This document shows, piece by piece, positions 4,434 to 29,770 of a stretch of 39,293 nucleotides of DNA. The stretch is from positions 1 through 39,293 of the forward strand of contig JAIRQN010000073.1 in assembly GCA_031256445.1 (NCBI GenBank), given 5' to 3'. Numbering within the stretch: the first letter of the stretch is position 1; every line of letters starts with the position of its first letter. Made by a program: the position numbers and the translations under genes. The stretch is from Treponema sp. (GTDB lineage Bacteria; Spirochaetota; Spirochaetia; Treponematales; Breznakiellaceae). The notes under the pieces were generated by a model. It was given only the letters and a program-made list of their open reading frames with translations. It was not told the origin of the DNA and made no database searches.

Positions 4434-4447
4434 CGTAATAAAAATCA

Positions 4448-4476
4448 TGTACAAAGACAGTTAGTGCCTATATCAT
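4448..4476 (+). promoter_or_regulatory. Candidate promoter of the furanose importer operon
   Basis: TGTACA at 4448-4453 (4 of 6 matches to the -35 consensus) is followed after 17 bases by TATCAT at 4471-4476 (5 of 6 matches to -10). The weak -35 box fits a promoter that needs an activator, such as the AraC-type regulator encoded just upstream. The short motif TTCGTA occurs twice upstream in the same orientation, at 4361-4366 and 4432-4437, and could mark regulator half-sites. This is inferred from pattern only. Confidence 0.38.
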
Positions 4477-4509
4477 ACTTTAATTAAACTTTTTTTATGG
4501 AGGAAAGTT

Positions 4510-5484: not shown

Positions 5485-5499
5485 TAACGACTGATGAGA

Positions 5500-5531
5500 A
5501 GCGGGGAACAGGAATTTTTTCACTCCCCGCT
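5500..5531 (+). terminator. Intergenic hairpin between binding protein and ATPase genes
   Basis: AGCGGGGA at 5500-5507 pairs perfectly with TCCCCGCT at 5524-5531 across a 16-base loop, and pairing extends outward with one bulge. No T run follows, so it is more likely an mRNA-stabilising or partially attenuating stem than a full terminator. Such stems after the first gene commonly let a binding protein be made in excess over its membrane complex. Confidence 0.55.
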
Positions 5532-5580
5532 CTCTGCTTCCGGCTCCTGACTCCTATTCGTTTTTACGGGAAAATATTTA

Positions 5581-8167: not shown

Positions 8168-8170
8168 AAT

Positions 8171-9292: not shown

Positions 9293-9304
9293 TTAGTTAT
9301 AAAA

Positions 9305-9344
9305 GTTTACCTGTTGTTGGGTAAACCAAAAATCAATTTTTTTT
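9305..9344 (+). terminator. Stem-loop with T run between the two importer operons
   Basis: GTTTACC at 9305-9311 pairs perfectly with GGTAAAC at 9320-9326 across an 8-base loop. A run of eight T at 9337-9344 follows after a 10-base gap, just before the ribosome site of the next gene. The stem is short and the T run is displaced, so partial termination or mRNA processing is more likely than a strong terminator. Confidence 0.45.
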
Positions 9345-9357
9345 GGAGGAAAAAATT

Positions 9358-10710
9358 ATGAAAAAAATTCTTGGCATTTGCGTAACGCTGCTTCTTGCTG
9401 TCAGTATGCTGGCTTTTGCCGGTGGCGGCAGACAGCGCGCAGCGGCAGACGGCGGCAAGGTCCAAATCTCCTACTCATTCTGGGGGACGCCGGATGAAGC
9501 CCGTGATGTGCAAAAAGTAGCGGATAAATTCAACGGAGAGCAGAACAAGATTCAGGTTACCGTTGTGCAGATTCCCCATGACACCTATGAAGCTACGCTC
9601 AACACAAGAGCGACTGCCGGGACATTGCCTGACTGCGGAATCATGAGCGAAGCCGCTACATTGCAGTATGCAACTAACGGTATGCTGGCCGATGTATCGG
9701 GAATGTACGCGGCAGGCGAATCAAAGCCGTTGGACAGCCTCGCGTTCAGGGGACCGGACGGCAAAGTCGTAGCTTACTCGGTAGCCAATGAAATCCTGCT
9801 GCTGTATTACAACAAGGATATGTTCGACAAGGCCGGAGTGCCGTATCCGCCGGCCGCCGCCGACAAGGCATGGACATGGGATGAATTTGTCGCGACAGCG
9901 AAAAAACTCACTTTGGACGCCAACGGCAGGACTCCGAATGACGCGGGTTTTGATCGCAACAGAATCGTGCAGTACGGCGCGATGGTGGAAACGCTTACAT
10001 GGCAGCTCGAAGTATGGGCGCTCAGCAACGGCGGCGGCTTTTACAGCAAGGACGGCAAGCAGGTAATTATCGACCAGAACGCCGCGATAGACGCAATTCA
10101 GAAAGTAGCGGATCTGCATACAAAAGATCTTGTCGCGCCCCTTTCACCAGGCCTTACCGATGACGGTATTCAGCGGTCAATCATCGCCGGTACTGTCGCG
10201 ATGGCGACAGGCGGACAGTGGAATGTTGGAACCTGTCTGGCGACAGCGCGCGACAAGGAAGGACTCAATTACGGCGTAGCGGTTCTTCCCTACATGAAGG
10301 AACTTGTTACCATTAATACCGGCGGCCCCAATGTAGTGTTCAGCCAGTCCAAAAATCAGAAAGAAGCGATGGAATGGCTCAAGTGGTACGCGCAGGAAGA
10401 GAACAGCTGGTTCCTTATTGAATCCGGCATCTGGATGCCTGTGCTGGAGAAATGGTATACCGATGAAACCTACACAAGAAAATGGGTCGGAAATCCGAAT
10501 TTCCCGCCGTATGATCAGTACAAGAGCGCGGTTGTGGATTTCGCCGCAAAGTACGCAAGGCCTACTTCCTGGTATTTTGTGAACAACACCATCGACTTTA
10601 ACAACCTTCTTCAGTCTGTACTGGGCGAAGTCTGGACAGGCAACAAAACAGCGCGGGATGCCATCACTTCAAACGCGGCGGCTCTGCGAAGGGCGCACTC
10701 AGGTCAGTGA
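9358..10710 (+). CDS. Oligosaccharide-binding protein, extracellular solute-binding family 1
   Basis: A 450-residue binding protein for the CUT1-type importer formed with the next two genes. A Sec signal peptide of about 20 residues ends AFA before GGGRQ, almost the same as in the protein at 4510. Family features are ISYSFWGTPDEARDV at the mature N-terminus and LLLYYNKDMFDKAGVPYP near residue 145. The frame is open from a TTG at 9343, but GGAGG at 9345-9349 stands eight bases before the ATG at 9358, which is therefore taken as the start. By position before two permeases and two arabinofuranosidases it resembles AbnE of the Geobacillus arabinan system; arabino-oligosaccharides are the inferred ligand. 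Confidence 0.9.
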   Translation: MKKILGICVTLLLAVSMLAFAGGGRQRAAADGGKVQISYSFWGTPDEARDVQKVADKFNGEQNKIQVTVVQIPHDTYEATLNTRATAGTLPDCGIMSEAATLQYATNGMLADVSGMYAAGESKPLDSLAFRGPDGKVVAYSVANEILLLYYNKDMFDKAGVPYPPAAADKAWTWDEFVATAKKLTLDANGRTPNDAGFDRNRIVQYGAMVETLTWQLEVWALSNGGGFYSKDGKQVIIDQNAAIDAIQKVADLHTKDLVAPLSPGLTDDGIQRSIIAGTVAMATGGQWNVGTCLATARDKEGLNYGVAVLPYMKELVTINTGGPNVVFSQSKNQKEAMEWLKWYAQEENSWFLIESGIWMPVLEKWYTDETYTRKWVGNPNFPPYDQYKSAVVDFAAKYARPTSWYFVNNTIDFNNLLQSVLGEVWTGNKTARDAITSNAAALRRAHSGQ

Positions 10711-10711
10711 T

Positions 10712-10735
10712 TTGTGAATAGTGACTTGTGAGTAG
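10712..10735 (+). repeat. Short imperfect direct repeat after the binding protein gene
   Basis: TTGTGAATAG at 10712-10721 recurs as TTGTGAGTAG at 10726-10735, with a related GTGAC between them. It starts one base after the stop codon. Function unknown; it may be a remnant of a small dispersed repeat. Confidence 0.4.
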
Positions 10736-10799
10736 CAGCTAACAGTTGACAGTAAAATGCCGGCTGTAAAAAGAGAGTAACAGGGAAAGGCGGCGGAAA

Positions 10800-11705
10800 A
10801 TGCGTAAACAGGGTTTGTCAAAGGCTTCGGTTCACGAGGCGAGGGTTGCGTATCTGTTTCTGATACCGGCGTTTGTGGGCCTTAGTGTACTGACCTACGG
10901 GCCTCTTGCCGCCGTTTTTTCCCTGAGTTTTTTTAACTGGAGAGGCGCTCTTGCACCGACATTTGCTGGATTTGTCAATTATATCCGCCTGTTTACAGAA
11001 GATCCCTATTTTATCGATTCTATAAAGGTAACAAGTTATTTTTCGCTATTGTCGGTGAGCGGCTGTATGGTTTATTCCCTGGCGGTGGCAATGCTTTTAA
11101 ACAGGAAAATACCGGCAAGAGGTTTTTTCCGCGCGGTTTTTTACCTGCCGTATGTTCTGCCCGCAGTTGCCGTGTATATCGGCTGGTCGTGGCTTTACGA
11201 AAGCAATTTCGGTTTATTCAATTATATTTTAAGCCAGCTTGGGATTAACAAGGTAAGGTTTATTGCCGATCCGAAACTGGTTGTGCCTTCCCTGGCTGTT
11301 ATCGCCGTCTGGCTGTCCGGGAATTTAATCGTTATATTCCTTGCAGGCCTGCAGAATGTTTCAAGGGTATATTACGAGGCCGCAGAAATTGACGGGGCAA
11401 ACTCGTGGCAGAAGTTCTGTCATGTTACCATTCCCGGCATGACGCCCATTATTTTTTATAATTTATTAATGTCGCTTATTACCAACATGCAGATAGTAAC
11501 GCCGGCCCTCGCGCTGACATCAGGCGGGCCCGGCAACTCATCCATGTTCATAAGTTATTTGATGTACAGATATGCGTTTGTATCAAGCCGCCTTGGTTAT
11601 GCCAGCGCGATATCATTCATATTTTTTATTATTGTCGCGGTTTTTACCGGCATCCTCTTCGCCACGTCCAAAGAATGGGTGTTCTATGAAGGAGGCGAGA
11701 AATGA
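10800..11705 (+). CDS. Carbohydrate ABC transporter permease, MalF/UgpA type
   Basis: A 301-residue inner-membrane permease with six hydrophobic segments. The cytoplasmic loop that docks the ATPase is visible as YYEAAEIDGANSWQKFCHVT (about residues 194-213), followed by IPGMTPIIF. AGGCGG precedes the ATG. It overlaps the next permease gene by four bases (ATGA). It forms one half of the membrane channel served by the binding protein at 9358. No ATPase gene accompanies this transporter, so it probably uses a shared MsmX/MsmK-type ATPase encoded elsewhere. Confidence 0.92.
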   Translation: MRKQGLSKASVHEARVAYLFLIPAFVGLSVLTYGPLAAVFSLSFFNWRGALAPTFAGFVNYIRLFTEDPYFIDSIKVTSYFSLLSVSGCMVYSLAVAMLLNRKIPARGFFRAVFYLPYVLPAVAVYIGWSWLYESNFGLFNYILSQLGINKVRFIADPKLVVPSLAVIAVWLSGNLIVIFLAGLQNVSRVYYEAAEIDGANSWQKFCHVTIPGMTPIIFYNLLMSLITNMQIVTPALALTSGGPGNSSMFISYLMYRYAFVSSRLGYASAISFIFFIIVAVFTGILFATSKEWVFYEGGEK

Positions 11706-12556
11706 GTTCATATAAAAACCGCATTAGGCACGAAAAAATATTTAACTGTTTTTCATTCGCGGGATTGGTTTTAATTACCGTCGCCGTTATTTTTCCTGTG
11801 TGGTGGATATTCCGGTCAAGCCTTATGAATAACGCCGAGCTGTTCGCGTGGCCTCCTTCGTTCTATCCCAAAAGATGGCTGTTCTCCAATTACGCGCAGG
11901 CGCTGAAATATTTTCCGTTTTGGCGTTATTTTTCCAATACAATGATAATAATTGTTCCTTCTGTTATCGCAGGAACATGCACCGCCACATTGTGCGGTTA
12001 CGCGTTCGCGCGCCTGCGGTTCCCCGGTAAACGTTTTATTTTTTCCCTGTGCGTGGGTTCAATGCTGCTTCCGAATATTGTCACCCTTGTTCCTCTTTAC
12101 ATAATGTGGACCCGCTTTTTTGGCATTGTAGATTCTTATCTGCCTTTGATTCTGCCTTTCTTCTGCGGAGGCGGGGCTTTTAATATTTTTCTTATCAGGC
12201 AGTTTATCCGCACTGTTCCGCGCGAGCTTGATGAAGCCGCGATTATAGACGGCGCCGGGTACTGGACAATCCTTACAAGAATAATTGTGCCTGCGATAAA
12301 ACCGGCCATGATAGTAGTCGCTCTTCTGCTTTTTATTCTTTTGTGGAACGATCTTCTGCAGCAGACGATTTATATTCACTCAACTTCCAAATTTACCATA
12401 GCCATAGGACTGATTCAGTTTAAAGGTTCTTTGTATACCGACTGGTCAATGCTGATGTGCGCTACCTGTATGTCTTTTGTTCCGGGGCTTGTTTTTTATC
12501 TGATTGGGCAGAAATATTTTGTAGAAGGAATTGTTTTAACGGGCATGAAGAATTAG
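11702..12556 (+). CDS. Carbohydrate ABC transporter permease, MalG/UgpE type
   Basis: A 284-residue permease, the second half of the channel. It has the MalG-type docking loop ELDEAAIIDGAGYWTILTRI and IVPAIKP, and ends in the usual short tail (GIVLTGMKN). GGAGG stands six bases before the ATG, inside the end of the preceding gene, so translation is coupled. The next gene is the GH51 enzyme after a 68-base gap that has only a 5-bp stem-loop and a ribosome site, so transport and hydrolysis are probably co-transcribed. Confidence 0.92.
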   Translation: MSSYKNRIRHEKIFNCFSFAGLVLITVAVIFPVWWIFRSSLMNNAELFAWPPSFYPKRWLFSNYAQALKYFPFWRYFSNTMIIIVPSVIAGTCTATLCGYAFARLRFPGKRFIFSLCVGSMLLPNIVTLVPLYIMWTRFFGIVDSYLPLILPFFCGGGAFNIFLIRQFIRTVPRELDEAAIIDGAGYWTILTRIIVPAIKPAMIVVALLLFILLWNDLLQQTIYIHSTSKFTIAIGLIQFKGSLYTDWSMLMCATCMSFVPGLVFYLIGQKYFVEGIVLTGMKN

Positions 12557-12612
12557 CGCCTTCCGGATAATATGTATCTGTCGTATAGACAGCCTGCCTT
12601 ATGAATTTTTAA

Positions 12613-16094
<3,482 letters not shown>

Positions 16095-16098: not shown

Positions 16099-19000
16099 CT
16101 AAACCAGTTCATTTCTTATTTCGCCGGAGGTTACTCTGGCCTGTTCGAATTCAAAATCGTCAATTTGCCGAATAAGCTGTTCTTTCAATGTTATGCTGAC
16201 AGGGAAAAGACGCAGTTCATTAATATGTTTCCTGCTGTCAGGATTTCCCATATCTATTAGTTTATCCAGTTTATCAAGCAGTTCCAGCGCGGTTTTTCTG
16301 TCAAGAAAAGCCGCATCCTCACTTTGCGCCGCAGGAGATGATAGTTCCAGTTCTTTGATAATATTATTGAATTCCGAAAGAACAACATTCAGTTCCGTAC
16401 CAAACTCTTCAAGCTGCATCGTCGTTATCTGATTGCCGTTTTTTAGCCGGGTTTCAATATCCTCGGCGGCTTTCTGCAGTATTGTCTTTCCCAGCTGCCC
16501 TGCGTTGCTTTTTAATGTGTGCGCGAGTCTGTGCGCCAGTTTTATATCGCCGGCTTTAATTGCCTGTACGATTTCATTGTACCTGTTCTTGTTGTCCTTT
16601 GCAAAATTTATTATAAGCCTCTGGCGCAGTTCGTTTTCCGCCTGCTGCTGCTGAATTTCATCCACCGAATGCCATTTTACCGGAGTAAAGTACTTCATCA
16701 GGCAATGCCATAACTCCTGCGAGGTAAACGGCTTTCCTACGCAGTCATGTATGCCGCTTCTCCTGTACACTTCAATGTCATTTGACATTATGTTAGCTGT
16801 CATTGCCACAATCGGGACGCCGGTGTCAAGCTCGATGATTTTTGACGCCGCTTCAAGTCCGTCCATAACGGGCATGTGCATATCCATGAAAATCAAATCA
16901 AACTGCTTTTCGCCAGAATCGAAGCGGCTTTGAACCAAATCCAGTCCTATTTTCCCATTATTGGCGACGACTGTTTTCAAACCCACCCTGGAAAGATGCT
17001 CGCAAATAACCTGCTGATTCATGGTGTTGTCTTCGCATAACAGGATTTCGCCTTCAAAAGTCGGCTTTTCAAGTTCGTTAAGCACAATTTTTACATTGGA
17101 AAAATTCTTGTCAGTTTCATCTATTGTGTCAAATGTCAGGGCAAAGCTGAATTTGCTGCCAACTCCGGGAACGCTTTCCAGTGAAAGTTTTCCGCCCATC
17201 ATTTCTATTATATTTCTTGTTATTGTAAGTCCAAGCCCTGTGCCGCCGTATTTGCGTGTTGTGCCGGATTCAGCCTGCGTAAACGGATCGAAAACCTTTT
17301 CAATCTGTTCTTTTGTCATGCCGATGCCTGAGTCTTTTATCTCAAAATGAATCATGACGGATTTTTCGCGTATTTCCTTGATCGCGGCATGCACTTTAAC
17401 CATGCCGGTATTGGTGAATTTTACGGCGTTGGAAAGAAGATTTAAAAGAATCTGACGCAGTCTTGTCGGATCTCCCAGCGGTCTTCTGCCCATATTCGGT
17501 TCTGTATAAAAGTGCATCATCAGGCCTTTTTCAATCGCTTTTGGCATGATCAATACCTTGCAGCTCGTAAAAAGTTCATGCATATCAAAGGGAATATTTT
17601 CCAGTTCAAGTTTGCCGGATTCTATTTTGGAGATGTCAAGAACGTCATTAATAATCTGAAGCAGCCATTCCGCGTTTGTTCGGATCTTGTTAAGGTAATC
17701 CTTTGTTTTGGGAGGGATATCGCCGTCCAGCGCAAGCTCGGAGAAACCGATGATACTGTTCATCGGCGTCCTTATTTCGTGGCTCATATTGGCAAGAAAA
17801 GCTGACTTGGAGCGCGATGCCGCAAGCGCCGCTTCTTCAGTTTCCTTCCGCCTGGTTATATCGCGCGCTATCGCGATAAGCCCTATTATATTGCCGTTCT
17901 GTATCAAGGGCGCCCTGACTGTTTCAAGAAACCGCGCTGAACCGTCAGTATCAGGCAATGTTTCTTCCGTTATAATCATGCGGCCTTCATTAAGAACCGC
18001 GTTATCCGCTTCCATGATTCTCAAGGCTACATCCGCTGTAAATTTTAAAGCGTCAATATCGGTTTTTCCGATTATATCTTTTTCGTTTGTTCCGGTGAAC
18101 TTCTCCGTTACCCTGTTGCATTGCGTATAATGCAAATTCAAGTCCTTGCAGTAAATAATATCGGGAATGGAATCGAATATTGTCTGAAGTTTCAGGGTTT
18201 GAAGCGACAGCTCGTGCGTTTTCTTGTCTACAAGATTTTGCAGATGTGCGCCGGTACGCCGGCTTCTTATAAAAAGAACAATAACAAGCGCAAGCACGCA
18301 CAAGGTAAGAACGGAAGAGCCTATCAGCCACGGAAACTGCGCTCTTACCAGTTTGCTCCTGTAATCGTATGTTTTTCTCAGCCATTGATCCGAGATGTTC
18401 CTTGTATCGATCATGCCGAGAGCTTTCTCAAGTATGGAACACAGAACAACCTGATCTATGTTAAGTCCGAATGTCATGCTGATTGTTGTGTCAAAAACAA
18501 CATTTGCTTTATAATCCGGAAGCTCCAGGTAATGGGTAAGGTATAAAATTCTTTTCTGGTTTGCCATTACCATTTCCACTTCCCCGCGCTGAAGGGCGGC
18601 GAAGGCTTCTTCCATTGATTCAAATTCTACAGTATTCATGTGATTGGGAAACCATTTGCTGAAAAGTTCCGTGTATGCGGTATTTCTGGCAAGGCCTACT
18701 TTAACGTATAAAATTTCATTTACTTTCATGTCAGGAAAATCGTATTTTGATATTAGCGCGTAATGGTCGATCATTTGATCCACATTGGGCCATAGAAAAA
18801 GGCCTGAACGTTCTGACGATTGAATTAAATCGGGAGCCAGCGCTATTTCCCCGTTTTTGAGCATTTCAAATATTTCCGGCCAATCGGTTTTTTCATCATT
18901 GACGCGTTCAAAGGCGAGTCCGGAAAGGTCTGAAATTTTCCCAAGAATATCAACGAAAATGCCTTTCCATTCATTATCACGCTTGTCATAAAAACTGTCA

Positions 19001-19965
19001 GGGTAATTGCCGGGATCCATTGCGATAGGTATGGGCGTCATGCGGTGTTTTAGTACGAAATTGCGTTCTTCAATTGACAGCTGTCTGTAGAGTTTATATT
19101 TGTAATATTCCCGTTCGCCCTCGTTGTATAATCTGGTCATATAGCGTATGCCGTCTTCTTCCAGTATTTTTTCAACAACAGATATAATTGGTTTAAGAGC
19201 CGGATCCTGCGTTGTCAGGGAGACATTCCTGTAAATCAGCGGGTAAAAATGCTGCGCGATAATGTCGCTGTGCTGAATAAAATTCGCCTCCGCAGGGCCT
19301 GTGTAATAAAAAGCGTCGATGCGTCCGTTTGACAGCGCGCTGTGAACAAGGTTTATATCGTCTAACAGAACGGTTTCATAAGCGCCGCCTGCAAGTTCAG
19401 CGGTGACAGTATAAATTGTGGAAGTTCCGGCAATGAAACCGCAGCGTACCGGCCTCTCTTTGATAATTTCATTTAACGGCCTGCTTCTGGCAAGACGGTA
19501 ATATTTTAACGGGCGCGAAGCGATGCCGCTTGTCATATAGTAAATTTTTTTACGCTCTTCTGTTTCAGTCAATTCGCCGGTAAAGGAAATTTCTTTTGAT
19601 TCAAGGCCGTCCAGTATATCGCGAAACTCGTATAATTTGGGCCGGAACGGTATTCCGAAAAGCTGCGAGAACCATTCGCAGAGCAGGGCAGTGTATCCCA
19701 TTACATCGCCGTATTCGCTTTCAAACGCTTCGGTACTCAGCGGCATTCCGTAAATAAAAGAATTATAATTTTTTTTAAGGTTTTCGATATCCCTTATTTC
19801 ATCTTCTGTTATTCCCGGAACATCCATGAATGAAGCATATCTTAAGGACTCGTTTTCCCTGACGGATGCCGGTTTATTGCATGATAATACTGGAAAAAGC
19901 GAAAATATTGCTGTCAGGAAAAAAACAGCATTACTTAATGAGATTTTGCTTTTTTTTAAAAGCAT
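16099..19965 (-). CDS. Multidomain hybrid histidine kinase with two periplasmic sensor modules (BvgS-like)
   Basis: A 1288-residue lipoprotein-type membrane kinase. The signal ends in a lipobox (VLSC, Cys29). Two binding-protein (SBP_bac_3-like) modules cover about residues 60-285 and 300-530, followed by a transmembrane helix (about 544-566), a PAS domain (about 590-705), the kinase core with His729 in SHEIRTP, Asn846 in LLSNAVKF and DSGIGM, a receiver with Asp1028 in FMDMHMP, and an Hpt domain with His1149 in AHTLKS. A further helical domain of about 70 residues ends the protein. Start and upstream stop share one base (TAATG), so it is coupled to the paralogous kinase. The periplasmic modules suggest sensing of a small solute; the ligand is unknown. 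Confidence 0.93.
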   Translation of the reverse strand: MLLKKSKISLSNAVFFLTAIFSLFPVLSCNKPASVRENESLRYASFMDVPGITEDEIRDIENLKKNYNSFIYGMPLSTEAFESEYGDVMGYTALLCEWFSQLFGIPFRPKLYEFRDILDGLESKEISFTGELTETEERKKIYYMTSGIASRPLKYYRLARSRPLNEIIKERPVRCGFIAGTSTIYTVTAELAGGAYETVLLDDINLVHSALSNGRIDAFYYTGPAEANFIQHSDIIAQHFYPLIYRNVSLTTQDPALKPIISVVEKILEEDGIRYMTRLYNEGEREYYKYKLYRQLSIEERNFVLKHRMTPIPIAMDPGNYPDSFYDKRDNEWKGIFVDILGKISDLSGLAFERVNDEKTDWPEIFEMLKNGEIALAPDLIQSSERSGLFLWPNVDQMIDHYALISKYDFPDMKVNEILYVKVGLARNTAYTELFSKWFPNHMNTVEFESMEEAFAALQRGEVEMVMANQKRILYLTHYLELPDYKANVVFDTTISMTFGLNIDQVVLCSILEKALGMIDTRNISDQWLRKTYDYRSKLVRAQFPWLIGSSVLTLCVLALVIVLFIRSRRTGAHLQNLVDKKTHELSLQTLKLQTIFDSIPDIIYCKDLNLHYTQCNRVTEKFTGTNEKDIIGKTDIDALKFTADVALRIMEADNAVLNEGRMIITEETLPDTDGSARFLETVRAPLIQNGNIIGLIAIARDITRRKETEEAALAASRSKSAFLANMSHEIRTPMNSIIGFSELALDGDIPPKTKDYLNKIRTNAEWLLQIINDVLDISKIESGKLELENIPFDMHELFTSCKVLIMPKAIEKGLMMHFYTEPNMGRRPLGDPTRLRQILLNLLSNAVKFTNTGMVKVHAAIKEIREKSVMIHFEIKDSGIGMTKEQIEKVFDPFTQAESGTTRKYGGTGLGLTITRNIIEMMGGKLSLESVPGVGSKFSFALTFDTIDETDKNFSNVKIVLNELEKPTFEGEILLCEDNTMNQQVICEHLSRVGLKTVVANNGKIGLDLVQSRFDSGEKQFDLIFMDMHMPVMDGLEAASKIIELDTGVPIVAMTANIMSNDIEVYRRSGIHDCVGKPFTSQELWHCLMKYFTPVKWHSVDEIQQQQAENELRQRLIINFAKDNKNRYNEIVQAIKAGDIKLAHRLAHTLKSNAGQLGKTILQKAAEDIETRLKNGNQITTMQLEEFGTELNVVLSEFNNIIKELELSSPAAQSEDAAFLDRKTALELLDKLDKLIDMGNPDSRKHINELRLFPVSITLKEQLIRQIDDFEFEQARVTSGEIRNELV

Positions 19966-22127
19966 TAGTTCAGCCCTTTCTTTATTTTTCCAAGTGAAAT
20001 AAGAGCCTGATCAAAATTATAATCTTCCATCTGCTGGATAAGGGCGTAAATTAAATCCTTGTCTCCTTCGATCCGCAGAATGCTGCTGATTTGATTTAAA
20101 CTCTCCGGATTTCCCATATCAATCATAAGTTCAAGTTTATCAATTAATTCCAGCGCTGAATGAGTGTCAAGCATTTCGGCTTGGTCACTGGGTAATTGAA
20201 CATTAGTTTCTTCCGGGTTCTGGGCAAGTTCTTCCGTAAGTTGCGATATGACCATTGCCAGTTCGTTCTCCAGAATCTTGAGCTGTTCTTCTGTTACAAG
20301 ATTTTTGCCGTCTTTAAGACGGTTTTCGACAACCGAGGCAGTTCTTTGCAGAAGAATTTTTCCAATTTGCCCTGCGCTTGTTTTTAATGAGTGCGCGAGA
20401 CGGTGCGCGAGTTTTATATCCTGCATCTGCAGAGTCTGCGATATTTCCTGGGCTTTATTCTGATTATTCTTAATAAACAATTCATGAAGAGACCGCAGAA
20501 ATTTCGCGTCCAGATCAATCTGGGTATTATCTTCGGCAGCGCCGCTTTCACTGTGACTTTCATCTTCCTTGTGGCGGTTTATGGGCGTCAGGTACTTTAA
20601 TAAACAGCGCCACAGTTCCTGGGACGTGAAAGGTTTGCCTACACAGTCATGGAGGCCGCTCATTCTGTATATTTCCCTGTCATTTGACATAATATTCGCG
20701 GTCATTGCTACAATCGGAATGCCGGCCTTAAGTTCAATAATCTGCGAAGCTGCCTCAAGACCGTCCATGACGGGCATATGCATGTCCATAAAAACAAGAT
20801 CAAACTGTTTTTCCCCGTTTTCGATGCGGCTTTTAACCATATCAACGCCGATTTTGCCGTTTTCCGCCACAACTGTTTTTATTCCGACCCTTGCCAGATG
20901 CTCGCAGATAACCTGCTGATTCATCAGGTTATCTTCGCATAACAGGACCTCGCTTTCAAACAGCGGTTTTTCAAGTTCGTTAAAAATAACTTTATGTTCA
21001 AATCTGTCCTTGTCTGTTATGTCCACAGTGTCAAATGTCAGATCGAAACTGAATTTGCTCCCGATTCCGGGCGAGCTTTCTACAAAAAGTTTTCCTCCCA
21101 TCATTTCAATTATATTTCTGGTTATTGCAAGACCAAGTCCCGTACCGCCGTAGTTAAGCCGGGAATCAGATTCCACCCGGGCAAACGGCGCGTATATTTT
21201 TTCTATTTGTTCCTGCGTCATGCCGATGCCGGAATCTTTTATTTCAAAATGCATGGTGATGGTTTTTTCGCTGATATCAGTTATGTCAGAAAGAATTTTA
21301 ACCATGCCCGTATTGGTATATTTTATGGCGTTTGAAAGAAGGTTTACAAATACCTGACGCAGCCTTGTCGGATCGCCAAGCGGCCTTTTGCCCACGCTCG
21401 GTTCGGCGTAAAAGTGAAGCAGGATTCCTTTTTCAACGGCCTTTGGCATTACCAGTGTTCTGCAGCTGATGAACAAGTCATGTATATCAAGAGGAATATT
21501 TTCCAGCTCCATGTTGCCGGATTCAATTTTTGATATATCCAGTATGTTATTGATAATCTGCAGCAGCCACTCGCCGTTTAAAATAATTTTTTTAAGATAG
21601 TCTCTTGTCAGAAGTGAAATATCCCCGTCCAGGGCAAGCTCTGAAAAACCCATTATGCTGTTCATGGGCGTTCTAATCTCGTGGCTCATATTGGCAATGA
21701 AAGCCGATTTGGATCTGCTTGCGTTCTGCGCGGCTTCAAGCGCGGTTTCCAGTTCATTTTGATACTTCTTAAGTTCAACTGTGCGCGCCTGCACAAGGTC
21801 TTCCAGCCGTTTGCTTTCGCTGCGTTTTATCTGTAATAACCTGAAGGTAAAAAAAAGACATAAAACAAGAGCAAGCACAATTACTGAAAGCAGTACGCGC
21901 ACAAGAACCGCGTTTATGCCTTGATTTGAAGCATGGGCTGAAGACTGGCTCTGCGCCAGAATAATTGTATATTCGCCCCGTTCCGGGGTATTCCCAATTT
22001 GTTCCTTTCCGGCATAACTGCCGCAAGCCGAAAGCATCGCCAAAAGTAGAATCATTATGGCAATGAACCTGATGAAATTACTCTTTGTTTGACTATTTTT
22101 TAGATCCATAAGATAGTATTTTATCAT
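19965..22127 (-). CDS. Hybrid histidine kinase without sensor domain (HK-REC-Hpt)
   Basis: A 720-residue paralogue of the following gene's kinase half. A lipobox-like signal (LSAC, Cys35) and one transmembrane helix (about 73-96) enclose only about 40 extracytoplasmic residues, so there is no room for a binding domain. A coiled coil (about 102-140) leads to the kinase core with His148, Asn265 and DSGIGM, a receiver with Asp447, an Hpt with His578 in AHSLKT, and the same C-terminal helical domain as its neighbour. The close match across kinase, receiver and Hpt indicates a tandem duplication followed by sensor loss. A start at 22109 would shorten the signal peptide; neither start has a clear ribosome site. 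Confidence 0.9.
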   Translation of the reverse strand: MIKYYLMDLKNSQTKSNFIRFIAIMILLLAMLSACGSYAGKEQIGNTPERGEYTIILAQSQSSAHASNQGINAVLVRVLLSVIVLALVLCLFFTFRLLQIKRSESKRLEDLVQARTVELKKYQNELETALEAAQNASRSKSAFIANMSHEIRTPMNSIMGFSELALDGDISLLTRDYLKKIILNGEWLLQIINNILDISKIESGNMELENIPLDIHDLFISCRTLVMPKAVEKGILLHFYAEPSVGKRPLGDPTRLRQVFVNLLSNAIKYTNTGMVKILSDITDISEKTITMHFEIKDSGIGMTQEQIEKIYAPFARVESDSRLNYGGTGLGLAITRNIIEMMGGKLFVESSPGIGSKFSFDLTFDTVDITDKDRFEHKVIFNELEKPLFESEVLLCEDNLMNQQVICEHLARVGIKTVVAENGKIGVDMVKSRIENGEKQFDLVFMDMHMPVMDGLEAASQIIELKAGIPIVAMTANIMSNDREIYRMSGLHDCVGKPFTSQELWRCLLKYLTPINRHKEDESHSESGAAEDNTQIDLDAKFLRSLHELFIKNNQNKAQEISQTLQMQDIKLAHRLAHSLKTSAGQIGKILLQRTASVVENRLKDGKNLVTEEQLKILENELAMVISQLTEELAQNPEETNVQLPSDQAEMLDTHSALELIDKLELMIDMGNPESLNQISSILRIEGDKDLIYALIQQMEDYNFDQALISLGKIKKGLN

Positions 22128-22282: not shown

Positions 22283-22660
22283 ATGACAGACAAAAAAATA
22301 GTTTTGGCGATTGACGATAATGTTCAGCAGCTTAATGAATATAAATATTTTCTGGTTTCTCAGTACGATTTGCGCGTTGTAAAATCGGCTTGTGAAGCCC
22401 TTAATTTTCTGAATTCCAGCAGCGCGGATATTATTCTCCTGGACATTGAAATGCCGGATATTTCCGGTTTTGAATTTCTGGAAGATATCAGAAGAATTCC
22501 CAGATATGCAAATGTTCCGATAATCATAGTCAGCGGTAATTCAGGGCCGCAGTTCATGGAAAGAGCGGGAAGTTCAGGCGCTGTTGATGTCCTGACAAAG
22601 CCTGTCGAACCCAATATGCTGGTTGATGTAATTGAAAAAGCGCTGATACACGCGCATTAA
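22283..22660 (+). CDS. Single-domain response regulator (CheY/Spo0F-like receiver)
   Basis: A 125-residue stand-alone receiver with no output domain. The acidic pair is Asp10/Asp11 in LAIDDNVQ, the phospho-acceptor is in ILLDIEMPDISG (about residue 52), the switch residue is Ser in IIVSGNS and the conserved Lys is in LTKPV. It has its own strong promoter and stands alone on the plus strand between two minus-strand kinase operons, ending 13 bases from the end of the kinase gene at 22674. It may shuttle phosphate between the Hpt domains encoded around it, as Spo0F or DivK do, or act by binding a partner; neither can be shown here. Confidence 0.9.
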   Translation: MTDKKIVLAIDDNVQQLNEYKYFLVSQYDLRVVKSACEALNFLNSSSADIILLDIEMPDISGFEFLEDIRRIPRYANVPIIIVSGNSGPQFMERAGSSGAVDVLTKPVEPNMLVDVIEKALIHAH

Positions 22661-22673: not shown

Positions 22674-24833
22674 TTATAAAGATAAAATGGCGGACAGTTC
22701 CTGGTGCAGTGAATACAGTTTTTCCCTGAATATCGGATATCTTTGCCTGCAATAGCCAATATCATGGCCTTTAACTGCAATTTCCAGTTCCAGCGCGGTT
22801 TCGGACAGTCTGGAAGCGCCTATGGCGGCAAGCATGGATTTTAATCCATGTATAGAAGTTGTAAAACGTTTATTGTTATTCGCTTCCAGGAAAGCGGCCA
22901 TATTATTGCATTCGGGCAATATTTTTCTGTGCAGAATATTCAGGGCTTTGCGGTAAATTTCTTCCTTGCCTGACAGATGTTTCATGCCTATTGCCGTGTT
23001 AATTTCCTTAATCGCGCTTACGCTGTTTAAAAAGACACTCTGTGTTTTTTCCTCAGAATCGCGCGCCGCCGGTTCAATGCCTTCGTATTCCTGAAAAAGT
23101 TCAGGCGTTCCCGGGATTGCGTCTTTTTTTACATTCAAAGGCGACAGCCATTCTTTCAGGATTTCATCAAGTTCCCTTATGCCGATTGGTTTGGATAAAA
23201 AGCCGTTAAATCCGCTGGTAAGGAATATTTCCCTCATGCCGGAAACGGCGTTAGCTGTCAATGCAATCACAGGAAGGCCTTTTAATTTGGAAATATTGCC
23301 TACGCAAACGCCGCCGGAAATCCCGGAGCTTTTTTTCTTCCGGAATGTTTCTTCTTCCCATTTTCTTATTTCCTGCGTAGTCTCCATTCCGTCCATTCCG
23401 GGCATCATGTGATCCATAAACACAAGGTCATACTTGTTGCGTTTTATTTTTTCTATTGCTTCCTTTCCGTTAGCCGCCGTGTCTATTTTAAGTCCGTACG
23501 GAGAAAGCATACCCTTTGCCACATACAGGTTCATGTCCATGTCGTCAACAACCAGAACGCGCGCGCCGGGAATTTGTTCGCGGATAAAATTCTGATTTTT
23601 TCTGGATTTTGCCTCATAACTTGATCTGAATTGATTGAGTTTATCCGCGTTTTCTTTTCCTATCTTTTGCGCTCCGGTGTTTCCCTGGGGCAAACGGACA
23701 GTAAAAACAGTTCCCTTGCCTGGTTCGCTCTGCGCGGTAATTTCGCCGCTCATCATACGGATAAAATTCTGAGTTATATTCATGCCAAGACCTGTGCCTT
23801 CTATTGTGCGGTTTGCTCCGGTGTTAAAACGCGAATATTCGTCAAACAGCTTTGCTACCTGATCTGATGTCATTCCCTGTCCGGTATCTTTCACGCGGAA
23901 AATCAGCATAACAATGCCGGGATTGGTTTCCTCATCCGTTTCTTCCTGGCTGATAGACAGTTCGATCTCGCCGGAATACGTATATTTAAAAGCGTTGGAA
24001 AGAAGATTGTTAAGAATCTGTTTAATGCGCAGTTCGTCCCCGTACAACTGCGACGGGACATTTTGATCAACGTTCAGGTTAAAGTCAACCGGTTTATTTT
24101 CGAATTTTATCAGATTAAAAAAAACTGTGTCATTAATAAGGCTGGCGACATCGTATTTTGCTTCAATTAATTCCAGTTTCCCGGCTTCTATCTTTGACAT
24201 ATCAAGTATGTCATTGATAATTCCAAGCAGCAAATCGCCTGAATTGAAAATCCTTGATAGCGCTTCTTTTATTTCATGCGGATGTTTTTCGTTCTGAAGC
24301 TGAATTTCCGATATTCCAAGAATGGCGTTAAGCGGAGTGCGTATTTCATGACTCATCCTCGCCAAAAAAGCCGATTTGGAATGATTTGCCTCATCGGCTG
24401 ATTTTACGGCTTCTTCCAGTTCCTGCTGAAGCCTGACGAGTTTACGGATCTGATTGACGATTTGTATTTGATTGCGAACCCTGGATCTGACAATTTTTGT
24501 ACTGAATGGTTTATGTATAAAATCAGAGGCGTTAAGATCAAGCCCTTTCTCCTCGTCTTCCACCTTGTCAAGGCCTGTTATGAATATTACCGGAATGTTT
24601 TGCGTAACCGGAGATATTTTCAGTTTCTCCAGCACTTCGTAGCCGTCCATATCAGGCATCAGAATATCCAGAAGGATTAGATCCGGTTTGTATTTGCCTG
24701 CCATTTCAATTGCGTTATACCCGCTTTTTGACATATAAACGCCGTATTCCGGGCTTAATATATTAATTAAAACATCGAGATTGGATTTTTCATCGTCTAC
24801 AATAAGTATTTTGTTTTTTTCATCGTTATCCAT
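22674..24833 (-). CDS. Soluble hybrid histidine kinase REC-HK-REC-Hpt
   Basis: A 719-residue cytoplasmic protein with no signal or transmembrane segment. The N-terminal receiver has D13/D14 and phospho-acceptor Asp56 in LLDILMPDMDG. A coiled linker (about 120-150) leads to the dimerisation domain with His162 in SHEIRTPLN and the ATPase domain with Asn280 in LLSNAFKYT, DTGQGM and GTGLGM. The second receiver has Asp474 in FMDHMMPGMDG and the Hpt His662 in IHGLKSM. It is the last gene of a four-gene operon: its ATG follows the TGA of the preceding gene with no gap. The input must come through the first receiver or a bound partner. Confidence 0.93.
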   Translation of the reverse strand: MDNDEKNKILIVDDEKSNLDVLINILSPEYGVYMSKSGYNAIEMAGKYKPDLILLDILMPDMDGYEVLEKLKISPVTQNIPVIFITGLDKVEDEEKGLDLNASDFIHKPFSTKIVRSRVRNQIQIVNQIRKLVRLQQELEEAVKSADEANHSKSAFLARMSHEIRTPLNAILGISEIQLQNEKHPHEIKEALSRIFNSGDLLLGIINDILDMSKIEAGKLELIEAKYDVASLINDTVFFNLIKFENKPVDFNLNVDQNVPSQLYGDELRIKQILNNLLSNAFKYTYSGEIELSISQEETDEETNPGIVMLIFRVKDTGQGMTSDQVAKLFDEYSRFNTGANRTIEGTGLGMNITQNFIRMMSGEITAQSEPGKGTVFTVRLPQGNTGAQKIGKENADKLNQFRSSYEAKSRKNQNFIREQIPGARVLVVDDMDMNLYVAKGMLSPYGLKIDTAANGKEAIEKIKRNKYDLVFMDHMMPGMDGMETTQEIRKWEEETFRKKKSSGISGGVCVGNISKLKGLPVIALTANAVSGMREIFLTSGFNGFLSKPIGIRELDEILKEWLSPLNVKKDAIPGTPELFQEYEGIEPAARDSEEKTQSVFLNSVSAIKEINTAIGMKHLSGKEEIYRKALNILHRKILPECNNMAAFLEANNNKRFTTSIHGLKSMLAAIGASRLSETALELEIAVKGHDIGYCRQRYPIFREKLYSLHQELSAILSL

Positions 24834-27092
24834 TCAATTGACCTCTGATAAAACCGAAAGTTTTTCCGTAATTTTCCCGTAGTTCATCTGATTAATATTT
24901 TCCCTCAGCCACTGAACAAGACCGCTGTCCTGTTCGTATTCATAAATTTCAATTTCTTTAAAAAGCGCTTCTATATCCGCTGTTTTACATTCCCCGCAGG
25001 CCTGAGACAATTTGCAAAGAACATCAGCGTCCGGCCTGTCTTTTTTTATTATTTTTTTAATTTCCATTTTACATGGTAATACATTTTCAATTTCTGTTAT
25101 AAGCTTTAAAGCGGTTTCAATAAAAAGCTGATTGTTATTCCTGATATATTCGTTATCGCCCGCTCTTGCGGCTTTTTCAAGAGCCTGCGCCTGATTGCCC
25201 AGCTCTTCGGCGCAGATGCCTCTGCATGATCCTTTAATTCCGTGAATTGCCGCTATGTAACCGCTGGAATCGGCGTCTTTAATAGCGTCAAGAAGAGGCC
25301 GTGTGTTAAGCGCAAATGATTTCAGAATATCAAGATATGTTTCCCAGACTCCCGCGAATCGCTCAATCCCCCTGCTTATGTCCAATCCCCTGATACCGGA
25401 AGTCAGAAGCCGCCTGTCATATCCTCTTCTTCTGTCGCCTCTTGCGGATCTCCTTTCGTAACCCGTGCGGCTGTCAAAAACTATTTCTCCGTCTATCAGA
25501 ATTTGCCGGTTTCCAGAGGTTTTTTCCATTTCTTTATCGCGCACCCACCGTTTAATAACTGCGTCAAGGCTGTAAATATTGACTGGTTTGGATATAAAAG
25601 CGTTAAATCCCTTGCCTAAAAACATTTCCTCGTTTCCGGCAAGAGCGTTAGCTGTAAACGCTATAATGGGAATGGTTTTTGCGTATTCAGTTCCAATATC
25701 TTCGCGGATTATCCGCGCCGCTTCGATTCCGTCTATCAGCGGCATTATGTGATCCATAAAAATCGCGTTATATCTGATTTTCCCTTCGCGTATCAGGTCT
25801 ATGGCCTGCTGTCCGCCGGATACGCAGTCAATCTGCATCCTGTAGGGTTTCATCAGGCCTTTTGCCACGTCAAGGTTTGTCATTATATCATCTACAACAA
25901 GCACCCGCGCGTAAGGCAGGCTTATCCGCTGAAGCTGTTTTTCCCGGCTTGCCTGATAATGGAAAGATTTTAATTTGCTTACGGTCTGCGGGCCCAATGT
26001 TTCAGCCGCCGCGATTTTTTGGGGAATTTCCACTTTAAAAAGGCTGCCTTTGCCGTATTCGCTTTCCACAAAGATGCGGCCGCCCATAATATCTACCATC
26101 ATTTTTGTAATTGAAAGCCCAAGCCCGGTTCCTTCAATTTTTCTGTTGGCGTTTATATCCATCTGTGCGTAATCTGAAAAAATGGCGCCAAGGTTGCCGC
26201 TTTTAATCCCGATGCCGGTATCCATGACGGAGGCGATCAGCCAAACGACATCTCCCTGCGGCGCAGCTTTTATTATTAATTCCACAGTGCCTTCTTTTGT
26301 GTACTTAAAGGCGTTTGACAAGAGATTGTTTAATATCTGTTTTATCCGCAGATCGTCACCGTACAGGCGCTTTGGAAGATTTTCATCAATATTCAGCCTG
26401 AACTCAACCGGTTTTTCGCCTTTTCGCATAACGCTTTGGACAGCGGCGTCGTTTATCATTGCGGCAGTGTCATATTCAACCGGCGTAAATTTAAATTTAC
26501 CCGCTTCTATTTTTGAAATATCAAGCACATCATTAACAAGGTCAAGAAGGGAAGCGCCCGCGCTTCCTATTTTTTCCACATTTCTCCTTGCCTCTTCGCT
26601 TAACCCTCCCGTTTCAAGAGTCATTTCCGCCATGCCGATAACCGCGTTAAGCGGGGTGCGCATTTCATGGCTCATCCTTGCGAAAAATTTATTTTTTTCC
26701 TCAATGCGGATTTGATTATTCAATTTTATTTGGTTTCGTATCCTTGTCTTTACGATACTTGCGCTGAATGGTTTATAAATATAATCAGCCGCTTCCAGAT
26801 CGAATCCTTTTTCTTCTTCGCCGCTTTTTGGCTCTGTTATAAGAATTACCGGGATATTCCGGGTTTTTTCCGATTTTTTAAGCGCGCCAAGCGCATCATA
26901 GCCGTCCATATCCGGCATATCGGTATCCAGCAGAATTACATCAGGCAAATTGTTATGCGCCATTGCGATTGCGGACAAACCGCTTTGCGCCGCATATACG
27001 GCGTATTCGGGACTTAGTATTTTTAGCAGAGATTCATGATTTGATCTTTCATCGCAGGCAATGAGTACGCTGTTCCTCCCGTCATTGGCCAT
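24834..27092 (-). CDS. Soluble hybrid histidine kinase REC-HK-REC-Hpt, altered first receiver
   Basis: A 752-residue paralogue of the downstream kinase with the same domain order. In the first receiver the acidic pair is changed to Cys13-Asp14 (IACDERSN), while Asp56 and the Lys in YKPFS remain. The kinase core has His142 in SHEMRTPLN, Asn260 and GTGLGL; the second receiver is complete with Asp447; the Hpt has His617 in IHGIKGS. A strongly basic Arg-rich linker (about residues 546-561) separates the last receiver from Hpt. A C-terminal helical domain related to those of the other kinases follows Hpt. It overlaps the preceding gene by 11 bases. It is probably catalytically active, but its first receiver may not be phosphorylated normally. 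Confidence 0.92.
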   Translation of the reverse strand: MANDGRNSVLIACDERSNHESLLKILSPEYAVYAAQSGLSAIAMAHNNLPDVILLDTDMPDMDGYDALGALKKSEKTRNIPVILITEPKSGEEEKGFDLEAADYIYKPFSASIVKTRIRNQIKLNNQIRIEEKNKFFARMSHEMRTPLNAVIGMAEMTLETGGLSEEARRNVEKIGSAGASLLDLVNDVLDISKIEAGKFKFTPVEYDTAAMINDAAVQSVMRKGEKPVEFRLNIDENLPKRLYGDDLRIKQILNNLLSNAFKYTKEGTVELIIKAAPQGDVVWLIASVMDTGIGIKSGNLGAIFSDYAQMDINANRKIEGTGLGLSITKMMVDIMGGRIFVESEYGKGSLFKVEIPQKIAAAETLGPQTVSKLKSFHYQASREKQLQRISLPYARVLVVDDIMTNLDVAKGLMKPYRMQIDCVSGGQQAIDLIREGKIRYNAIFMDHIMPLIDGIEAARIIREDIGTEYAKTIPIIAFTANALAGNEEMFLGKGFNAFISKPVNIYSLDAVIKRWVRDKEMEKTSGNRQILIDGEIVFDSRTGYERRSARGDRRRGYDRRLLTSGIRGLDISRGIERFAGVWETYLDILKSFALNTRPLLDAIKDADSSGYIAAIHGIKGSCRGICAEELGNQAQALEKAARAGDNEYIRNNNQLFIETALKLITEIENVLPCKMEIKKIIKKDRPDADVLCKLSQACGECKTADIEALFKEIEIYEYEQDSGLVQWLRENINQMNYGKITEKLSVLSEVN

Positions 27093-28515
27093 TCCGCCGC
27101 TCCTTTTTCAGTTCCAGCGTTAACGCGTCGATTATGGACACTGCCTCATCGTAATTGCCTTTTAGTTTGTTTTCCAGAATGGCTCTGACAGATTCGCCTA
27201 AATTTAACGGCTTATTTGCGCTTTGAGCGGCGGAGATTTTTCCAAAAGCGTATTTCTGCAGACTGTCAGATGCGTTATTTATTTGCGGAAAATCAAATGC
27301 ATTTAACGCGTTTTTTAAACAGGATAGTTCATTTATCAGTACTTCCGCATTAATGGCGGAATTTCCGTCTTTTTCCGGTTCTTCTTCAAGCGCCAGATTT
27401 ATTTTGCTGATAAGCGTTTCCAGTTCTGCTATAAACGCCGCTGTGTGTTCCCTGATGAAGGCCATATCATTCCGTATTCCGGCGTTTTCCAGCAATTTTG
27501 ATGTCTCTGATAAACTGTCGGCGCCAATGATGGCGCAGGCGCTTTTCAGCGAATGCGCGTTAATGGTATAAGACCTGATATTATCCGTTTCCATGAAGGC
27601 TTTTAAACCGCTGATTTTCTCAAGAGCGTCTTTCTGGAACAGGGAGAGGACTTTAATATAGTTCTGCATATTGTTATCTGCCATGACAATGCCCTTTTCA
27701 GCGTCCAGCCCCTTAATATTGAATTTTTCATTTCTGCCGCCTTCGCCGCCTGAAACTCCGTTTAAAAGATTGGCAATCGTTATGCAATGCACCGGCATTG
27801 CAATGGCGCTGACATTCCCTTTCAGGACTTCTTCGTCTGTATCCGTAAAAACCGCGAATTTTACAAAAGGCGTCAGATATGAATACCTGATTCTGACATC
27901 TTCATACAGGGCCTGCGGAAGAAAAACATAAGAATAATCATTGCTTTCCAGACAGTTGTAAAAGGCGCTGACGCCCGAAACAAGTTTATAGTTAACGCCA
28001 AGGCTGTCCAGAGTACGGATAATTGAGTTTGCGTATATCACGCGCTGTTCATATACAAGAATATTGTTTTTTTCCGGATTTTCAACAACGGCTGTTCTTT
28101 TATCAGCAAGAACATTTTGCGTTAACAATAGCGTAAAAATTTCGCCGCTTAAACTTTCGGATATCTCCATTTTTATTTTGACATCGGTGCTGTTAAAATC
28201 TTCCAGATCGGCGCAAAAGGTTATATATCCCTGACCGGCGTATACGGTGTTCGCCTGATGTTCCGCCGCGAGCGCGGCGCGTCTTATAATATAACCGAAT
28301 ATTCCGGTTAATATATCCCGCATTCCTGCCAGATCGGCGGACAATTTGTCCGGTATGTTACAATCTATGTTTACCGTAAAATGTATGCCCGATTCCGCCG
28401 TTTTGAATTTCATAATGGCGATTATTTCCCTGATAAACGCGGAAAACATGTACTCCTGGGATATAACTCCGGTATTTCTGTCTCTGCCTGTTTTTTGCTC
28501 CAGAATGTCCGTCAT
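27082..28515 (-). CDS. Hpt protein with degenerate kinase ATPase and pseudo-receiver segments
   Basis: A 477-residue soluble protein. Residues about 20-145 align with the start of the ATPase domain of the neighbouring kinases (IPDKLSADLAGMRDIL), but there is no dimerisation domain with phospho-acceptor His, the essential Asn is replaced (Tyr75) and no G-boxes are seen. Residues about 150-250 resemble a receiver but lack the acidic pair (VYEQ) and the phospho-acceptor Asp (FLPQ). The Hpt domain is intact with His321 in INAHSLKSACAIIGADSL, and a C-terminal helical domain follows. It overlaps both neighbours (4 and 11 bases), so it is translated as part of the operon. A role as phosphotransfer scaffold between kinases and the HD-GYP regulator is inferred. 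Confidence 0.82.
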   Translation of the reverse strand: MTDILEQKTGRDRNTGVISQEYMFSAFIREIIAIMKFKTAESGIHFTVNIDCNIPDKLSADLAGMRDILTGIFGYIIRRAALAAEHQANTVYAGQGYITFCADLEDFNSTDVKIKMEISESLSGEIFTLLLTQNVLADKRTAVVENPEKNNILVYEQRVIYANSIIRTLDSLGVNYKLVSGVSAFYNCLESNDYSYVFLPQALYEDVRIRYSYLTPFVKFAVFTDTDEEVLKGNVSAIAMPVHCITIANLLNGVSGGEGGRNEKFNIKGLDAEKGIVMADNNMQNYIKVLSLFQKDALEKISGLKAFMETDNIRSYTINAHSLKSACAIIGADSLSETSKLLENAGIRNDMAFIREHTAAFIAELETLISKINLALEEEPEKDGNSAINAEVLINELSCLKNALNAFDFPQINNASDSLQKYAFGKISAAQSANKPLNLGESVRAILENKLKGNYDEAVSIIDALTLELKKERRNGQ

Positions 28516-29684
28516 TTTGAAAAGCCCGGTTCATCTGCATTTTCGGTATTTGCCGCCGCGGTATCTTCCTGTTCGTCATTTTTCTGCGGTGTTTCATTCG
28601 CAATATCCTTAAACCTGTCTGCAATGCCCAGAAATAAATCCACAAGATCAGGATCAAAGTGTTCTCCGCTATCACCGATTATAATATTCACCGCTTCTTC
28701 ATGCGTAAACGCTTTTTTGTAGGGCCTTTCGGAAATGAGCGCGTCATAAACATCCGCGATTGCCATCAGCCGTCCCTGGAGGGGAATTTCTTCTCCCTTC
28801 AGCCCGTTTGGATAACCGCTGCCGTTCCATTTTTCATGATGCGTTGTTATCAGGATTTTTGCCTGATCCAAAAACGCGCGCTCTGATGTATTTTTCTTTA
28901 TGCGCTCTATTACGTTTTCGCCGAATGTCACATGTTTTTTGATTTCTTCATATTCTTCAGAGGTAAGTTTATCAGGTTTCAGAAGAATGCCGTCTCTGAT
29001 TGCGATTTTCCCGACATCGTGGAGCTGCGATGACTGCAGAATAAGATCCATGTCCCATGACTCAATTTCCTTTTGGTATTTTTCATTTTTTTGAAGCGTT
29101 TCAAGCAGCAGGCTCATGTATAACCTGGTTCTTTCGATATGTTCGCCGGTTGTACTGTCGCGGTATTCCACAAGTTCCGCCATTGTTTTTAAAAGGGCGT
29201 TTTTCAGCTGCTCAATCATTTTTGTGCGGACATCTACCATTTCCATAAGGTTATCATTAAAATCTATCAGCTGGTTTTTTTGGGATTCTACAAGCAGATG
29301 CATCTGAATGCGCTTAAGCAGCAAAGGAGGGGAAAACGGTTTCGCGATATAATCTATTGCGCCTAACGACAGCCCTGTTAACTCGCTTTCAGTATCGCTT
29401 TTCGCTGTCAGGAAAATAACCGGTATATATTTTGAATGTTCATTGCTTTTTAAAATCTTTATTGTACTGTAGCCGTCCATTTCCGGCATTTCGACATCCA
29501 GAAGAATCAGATCCGCCGTATGGTTTTCCAGCATCTTTATCAGGCGGCTGCCTGAATTCATTGTGATGACATTGTAATGTTTACAGAGAGCGTCATTCCC
29601 GAATGCCAGGTTTGTTATATCGTCATCGACCAGAAAGATCGTTTTCATATCTTCGCGGGAAGTCCCATTGCAGGAAGCGCTCAT
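28512..29684 (-). CDS. Response regulator with HD-GYP cyclic-di-GMP phosphodiesterase domain
   Basis: A 390-residue soluble protein. The receiver has D20/D21 in LVDDD and phospho-acceptor Asp63 in LLDVEMPEMDG, then a coiled linker (about 135-165). The HD-GYP domain has His222/Asp223 in QLHDVGKIAI, HHEKWNGSGYP with the GYP triad at 290-292, and IADVYDALISERPYKKAF. The family hydrolyses cyclic-di-GMP, which governs motility and surface behaviour in spirochaetes. GGAGG stands eight bases before the ATG. It is the first gene of the operon and the only one of the island with an output domain, so the phosphorelay probably sets its activity. Confidence 0.94.
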   Translation of the reverse strand: MSASCNGTSREDMKTIFLVDDDITNLAFGNDALCKHYNVITMNSGSRLIKMLENHTADLILLDVEMPEMDGYSTIKILKSNEHSKYIPVIFLTAKSDTESELTGLSLGAIDYIAKPFSPPLLLKRIQMHLLVESQKNQLIDFNDNLMEMVDVRTKMIEQLKNALLKTMAELVEYRDSTTGEHIERTRLYMSLLLETLQKNEKYQKEIESWDMDLILQSSQLHDVGKIAIRDGILLKPDKLTSEEYEEIKKHVTFGENVIERIKKNTSERAFLDQAKILITTHHEKWNGSGYPNGLKGEEIPLQGRLMAIADVYDALISERPYKKAFTHEEAVNIIIGDSGEHFDPDLVDLFLGIADRFKDIANETPQKNDEQEDTAAANTENADEPGFSK

Positions 29685-29761
29685 AAATAATTCCTCCGGT
29701 TCATACTGATATTTTTATCCGTTTTCGCGCTGATTAAATTGCGGAAAATTTAACTTTTTTT

Positions 29762-29770
29762 ATTATAGCA
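29762..29770 (-). promoter_or_regulatory. Extended -10 promoter of the HD-GYP/hybrid kinase operon
   Basis: On the minus strand TGCTATAAT at 29770-29762 is a perfect extended -10 element; no good -35 box is seen upstream. A second TATAAT is present about 22 bases upstream. Transcription from here gives a leader of about 70 bases before the gene starting at 29684. Confidence 0.58.

Follow-up and report, generated by a model that had tools for sequence, protein, structure and literature searches.

A treponemal RpfC/RpfG-type module in which the kinase of a REC-HD-GYP regulator is likely reduced to an Hpt protein beside two soluble hybrid kinases

The genes described here, A, B, C and D, lie on a Treponema contig of 39,293 nt (C74; this whole stretch of DNA is called the window), which belongs to a genome of 2.79 Mb, 98% complete and distributed over 107 contigs. 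The cassette is an unusual rewiring of the common RpfC/RpfG-type module, and not a new kind of system. Its distinctive trait appears to be that the kinase of the REC-HD-GYP regulator A was reduced to an Hpt protein, B, which stands beside kinases of other families, C and D. We read the four genes as a composite phosphorelay on an RpfC/RpfG-type core, in which C and D would pass phosphate to Hpt domains, their own and/or that of B, and from there to A, which would set the level of cyclic-di-GMP. A probability of roughly 0.55 is given to this reading, and we infer the transfer steps from sequence.

All four genes are located on the minus strand, from 29684 down to 22674. Gene A (28512..29684, 390 aa) encodes a REC-HD-GYP response regulator (Pfam Response_reg 7e-24, HD_5 3e-31), presumably a cyclic-di-GMP phosphodiesterase and the output of the cassette. 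Gene B (27082..28515, 477 aa) encodes a kinase-dead phosphotransfer protein with an Hpt domain (Pfam Hpt 6e-9). Genes C (24834..27092, 752 aa) and D (22674..24833, 719 aa) encode hybrid kinases with the domain order REC-HisKA-HATPase-REC-Hpt, assigned by Pfam and motifs. The overlap is 4 nt between A and B and 11 nt between B and C, and there is no gap between C and D; judged by these overlaps, a single transcript for A-D is plausible. Promoter and terminator scans gave counts little above those in shuffled sequence. No transmembrane segment was found in A-D, where the best 19-residue Kyte-Doolittle mean did not exceed 1.39, compared to 3.06 in F and 2.83 in G, two neighbouring membrane hybrid kinases; C and D presumably receive cytoplasmic inputs. 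The lone receiver E (22283..22660, plus strand, Pfam) is separated by 13 nt from D, which is encoded on the other strand, and is a possible second target. It is followed by F (19965..22127, minus strand), with HisKA-HATPase-REC-Hpt, and G (16099..19965, minus strand), which carries one or more SBP_bac_3 domains, PAS and HisKA-HATPase-REC-Hpt in an EvgS-like layout, both by Pfam. An earlier note on this DNA had described four soluble, overlapping or abutting genes for a REC-HD-GYP protein, a kinase-dead Hpt protein and two REC-HK-REC-Hpt kinases, and coordinates, Pfam, hydropathy and motifs agree with it. Its five receivers are correct by count, but the first receiver of C reads ACDE, with Cys where the first acidic residue of the pair would be, and may be weak, and B holds a sixth, inactive one. 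The HD-GYP protein as sole output holds for the four genes, but E, F and G adjoin them.

In the proposed relay, C and D would autophosphorylate at H142 and H162, respectively, and phosphate would then move to their internal receivers, at D447 in C and D474 in D. The catalytic motifs of both kinases, i.e., the H-box with these histidines, the N-box and the G-boxes, are intact, and so are the internal receivers and the Hpt histidines, H617 in C and H662 in D; the Hpt of D scored 19.1 bits, which is under the Pfam cut-off, and is backed by a profile built in this analysis. The next acceptors would be the Hpt histidines, either H617 and H662 in the kinases themselves, H321 of B, or both, and B would now act as a separate Hpt protein in the manner of RcsD. 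Since C and D have their own Hpts, B need not lie in the path. Phosphorylation of D63 of A by the Hpts most likely alters the predicted HD-GYP activity and thereby the cyclic-di-GMP level; we infer both this activity and the direction of its regulation. When trees were compared with that of A, B (r 0.51) and D (r 0.50) tied as partner, while paired loci had a median of 0.74. C and D have N-terminal receivers that grouped, in the receiver tree, with output-type receivers, apart from the internal ones (support 99), so the Hpts may feed them as well and gate the kinases. Close to them in the tree were receivers encoded upstream of A's relatives, one of these in a REC-GGDEF gene; the alignment behind the tree is short, and its finer joins are supported only at 80-89.

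The receiver of A retains D20-22, the phospho-acceptor D63, T93 and K115, and its HD-GYP domain, alignable with PA4781 (4r8z) and PmGH (4mcw), retains H222-D223, H251, H282-H283, GYP at 290-292 and D311. The genome, which is 98% complete, encodes at least six proteins with GGDEF and four with PilZ, and HD_5 (the HD-GYP family) matched at about a dozen places, while the search for EAL gave no match. HD-GYP is therefore the only candidate phosphodiesterase class among those searched.

A regulator of this kind with an Hpt protein nearby is a frequent arrangement. A same-strand Hpt protein was located not more than two genes away from 47 of 59 REC-HD-GYP genes in the sampled loci of the genus (44 of 53 when genes at edges were omitted) and from 57 of 81 in the public genomes (51/67 off edges). 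The loci were selected for their resemblance to A or to the genes next to it, and some genomes are possibly in both sets, so these frequencies apply to that family and not to all HD-GYP genes. Within the genus the Hpt-ending neighbour is usually a hybrid kinase, and other phyla have this arrangement too. Several kinases stand beside the REC-HD-GYP gene in L073, L074, L075, L078, L159 and L162. The nearest relatives of A were found in the loci L068, L070 and L071, with a fork supported at 99/94 joining A with L068 and L071. Each of these three REC-HD-GYP genes has nearby a hybrid kinase of the PAS type with REC-Hpt at its end, and those of L068 and L071 were among the best matches of B. The gene order in L068 is MCP-REC, Hpt, a relative of D (REC-HK-REC-Hpt-REC), REC-GGDEF, REC-HD-GYP, a 179-aa gene, the kinase (PAS-kinase-inactive receiver-REC-Hpt) and a Ham1-like gene; in L071 it is a 308-aa receiver gene, REC-HD-GYP, a V4R gene, the kinase and a Ham1-like gene. 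Among A's relatives, L068 was the only one with GGDEF supported by Pfam, and L071 the only one with V4R. In L186 a REC-HD-GYP gene 70% identical to A follows an F/G-like REC-Hpt end, and the intact kinase comes next with no intervening gene, overlapping it by 4 nt, as B does with A. The small V4R gene of L071 (2481-3008, Pfam), between the regulator and its kinase, is without counterpart in the window; genes in the same position in L068 (4148-4687, 179 aa) and L070 (10863-11396, 177 aa) were V4R-like by eye. The partner kinase of L070 (8610-10847) has HisKA, receiver and Hpt and is devoid of the ATPase domain; it is a second case of reduction within this clade. Also noted were a protein with REC and two HD-GYP matches (L117, 4940-6652), beside a hybrid kinase of 1331 aa, and a 1374-aa fusion of kinase, receivers, Hpt and REC-HD-GYP (L250, 10091-14215), adjoined by a separate REC-HD-GYP gene.

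Genes C and D belong to other kinase families. In the kinase tree C clustered with nine kinases (support 99/99), all of them divergent from an ortholog of E and most of these loci then continuing with an [FeFe]-hydrogenase-MCP fusion. Relatives of E were 53-69% identical to it, and nine were seen with an adjoining C-type kinase. Full-length relatives of D, 56-63% identical, occur with an MCP-signal-plus-REC gene (Pfam) and an Hpt gene of 122-126 aa in L068 and L098; L099 and L100 have similar layouts, judged by length and domain order. In L106, L107 and L108 a D-type kinase, an F-type kinase and a REC-GGDEF gene follow each other consecutively. As the relatives of C and D are so often tied to MCP fusions, lone receivers and REC-GGDEF genes, the main targets of the two kinases may be elsewhere. 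They would then chiefly serve E, chemotaxis proteins and REC-GGDEF proteins, and their place by A and B would be incidental or give weak cross-talk. We consider this rather unlikely, though it is the competitor that survives best. The two genes follow B directly, gapless and on the same strand, and the D relative of L068 lies just upstream of REC-GGDEF and the A ortholog. Moreover, an enzyme of cyclic-di-GMP metabolism stands beside the D-type kinases of L068, L106, L107 and L108, and REC-HK-REC-Hpt kinases adjoin REC-HD-GYP genes in L075 and L159.

Protein B is likely what remains of A's own hybrid kinase after loss of the catalytic parts and the true receiver. It consists of an ATPase remnant (residues ~14-140), an inactive receiver (~148-254), an Hpt (~266-380) and a C-terminal helical part, of which Pfam detected the Hpt alone (289-345), with the active-site histidine H321 within AHSLKS. 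It aligns with the hybrid kinase found beside A's nearest relatives. Compared to the intact kinases, B starts where the second DHp helix ends, and the phosphorylatable histidine is thus lost; the N-box NLLSNA reads GIFGYI, without its Asn residues, and a block of 54 columns with the G-boxes is absent, as is the true receiver between the inactive receiver and the Hpt. By alignment and predicted fold, the receiver that is left has a receiver fold without phospho-acceptor, placed after the catalytic domain. The ATPase remnant was 23-40% identical to the relatives, against 53-70% for the same regions among intact kinases. The corresponding values were 34-49% and 32-49% for the inactive receiver, and 41-46% and 41-58% for the Hpt, i.e., within the range of intact kinases, so that relaxed constraint is limited to the dead ATPase remnant. 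That B keeps an inactive receiver under normal constraint without a kinase suggests that such receivers act beyond the kinase itself.

In the AlphaFold2 model of B (mean pLDDT 77.9, pTM 0.50), part of a catalytic domain precedes a receiver fold, which is followed by a helical Hpt and further helices at the C-terminus; the relative placement of these domains is unreliable at this low pTM. Foldseek gave ShkA (6qrj) as the top match, and the Hpt part matched solved Hpt domains, best 3myf. Residues 9-264 of B superposed on residues 72-382 of the ShkA crystal structure with Z 16.4 and 3.4 A over 220 residues. The structural comparisons taken together probe chiefly the receiver and Hpt parts of B. 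With phmmer nothing was found for B in PDB at E 0.1. Among the matches listed from 100 relatives there was no ortholog of B as such, the best being larger kinases or their parts, and a contig scan with B alone as query found no relative. NCBIfam gave two weak matches, TorS and ArcB; RcsD was not among them, and the library may hold no RcsD model. In the Hpt tree, B fell outside the L068/L070/L071 group, next to it in a fork that the tree did not resolve.

The losses in B, together with the complete relay domains of C and D, could also mean that B is a decaying leftover and that the Hpts of C and D phosphorylate A directly. We find this improbable, because the frame of 477 codons is open and in a neutral-drift simulation, with substitutions only, none of 300 frames was still free of stops at either 65% or 50% identity; a chance or decayed reading frame is thus unlikely. 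The active site of the Hpt is also intact and conserved as in intact kinases, and kinase-less Hpt or REC-Hpt neighbours of REC-HD-GYP genes were found in L076, L077 and L192 as well. Other apparent cases of the latter were left out as they were at contig ends, had broken frames, were fragments or were distant (L185). A more elaborate version of the preferred relay is a little more doubtful still: A's kinase would have been cut down to an Hpt hub, B, with C coming from the hydrogenase-linked locus and D, MCP- or cyclase-linked, both driving A, while the Hpts would feed the N-terminal receivers of C and D, and the inactive receiver of B would bind cyclic-di-GMP and provide feedback. Transfer through Hpt domains is reversible in principle, and B, which seems to have no kinase activity of its own left, might act as a phosphate sink that drains A to the receivers of the kinases and switches A off; the direction of flow is not readable from sequence, and we give this little credence. 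The sequence of B comes from a single MAG, and the ATPase-domain loss in L070 is likewise from a MAG, so B might owe its deletions to faulty assembly. We hold this to be highly improbable, since assembly error would hardly produce a number of distinct losses that all leave the frame unbroken, together with a diffuse divergence limited to the ATPase remnant.

The preferred reading, the composite relay, was compared with known systems. In RpfC/RpfG, of the DSF system of Xanthomonas, a hybrid kinase with receiver and Hpt drives an adjacent, cyclic-di-GMP-degrading REC-HD-GYP protein by phosphotransfer via the Hpt (PMC4504480). Similarly, in the cassette a REC-HD-GYP protein with intact motifs is adjoined by HisKA-HATPase-REC-Hpt kinases, but C and D each carry an extra N-terminal REC, and A's own kinase is likely reduced to the separate, kinase-dead B. 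RpfC is a single membrane protein with five transmembrane helices which senses DSF, whereas C and D are soluble, with no hydrophobic stretch. In the absence of such a five-helix membrane sensor on C and D the cassette was not classed as an Rpf/DSF system; no rpfF/rpfB-like families (DSF synthesis) were found among the main window genes scanned. RcsD is an Hpt protein thought to be derived from a hybrid kinase, with a non-functional ATPase less conserved than that of the active kinase (PMC7418988). B resembles it in having an Hpt with an active-site histidine and an inactive ATPase. However, RcsD is membrane-bound and feeds RcsB, while B is soluble, retains an inactive receiver and adjoins an HD-GYP gene, and as it has no membrane anchor it is RcsD-like in working at most and was not classed as RcsD. 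In ShkA of Caulobacter, as in the intact relatives of B, a pseudo-receiver separates the kinase from the receiver, but B is without the active ATPase, the second receiver, the REC1-REC2 linker and the DDR motif. Autoinhibition of the ShkA type through the REC1-REC2 linker is thus impossible within B, which has neither active ATPase nor second receiver. In the phosphorelay architecture M3, a kinase-receiver-Hpt protein works with a separate regulator (PMC8199921); taken with A alone, either C or D conforms to it, but here two such kinases and an extra Hpt protein stand by one output regulator. The reduction of a kinase to its Hpt, with its regulator kept, is traceable here, and the intact counterparts in close relatives allow a comparison of before and after. 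If confirmed, it would show a way in which a cyclic-di-GMP phosphodiesterase is deprived of its own sensor and comes under the control of other kinases.

The exact set A-B-C-D was found in one MAG only, and nowhere else among the surveyed genus loci and public genomes; the idea of a conserved four-gene unit was accordingly rejected. A search for the same gene order, proposed in the earlier note, thus returned the pieces of the cassette but not the whole. Nor do the four genes form a natural unit by themselves: in relatives, the E ortholog accompanies C-type kinases, and D-type kinases are followed by F-type ones. The titles and abstracts listed in literature searches gave no description of the set, in line with the remark that no named system has it, although the cassette elaborates an RpfC/RpfG-type module. 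The signal integrator for cyclic-di-GMP that had been envisaged fits the anatomy and the presence of GGDEF and PilZ without EAL, but not as a stand-alone system.

As an F-type kinase follows the D-type kinase in L106-L108, F and G are probably part of a wider cluster. The two are 61% identical over their shared part, and the NCBIfam EvgS model matched G at 314-1159, far under the cut-off. The arrangement of a C-type kinase divergent from a lone receiver, often then with an [FeFe]-hydrogenase-MCP fusion, was seen in the window's own genome (L105, 7911-12912, contig C4) and in L267-L279. The fusion was identified by Pfam in L105, and BLAST with the L105 protein located it after the E ortholog in L267, L268, L273, L277, L278 and L279. 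It also follows the E ortholog in L270, L271, L272 and L274, where there was no C-type kinase in the stretch examined, and it was not detected within the 1.5 kb examined in L269, L275 and L276, of which L269 has another kinase there. Putative chemotactic hydrogenases constitute group C2 in HydDB (PMC5037454). Family ties alone hint at a connection between hydrogenase-linked signalling and cyclic-di-GMP in these treponemes. Elsewhere in the window, 197-16094 encodes ABC transporters and binding proteins of the sugar type, together with a His_kinase/AraC-type regulator pair and enzymes of arabinofuranosidase families (Alpha-L-AF_C, GH127).
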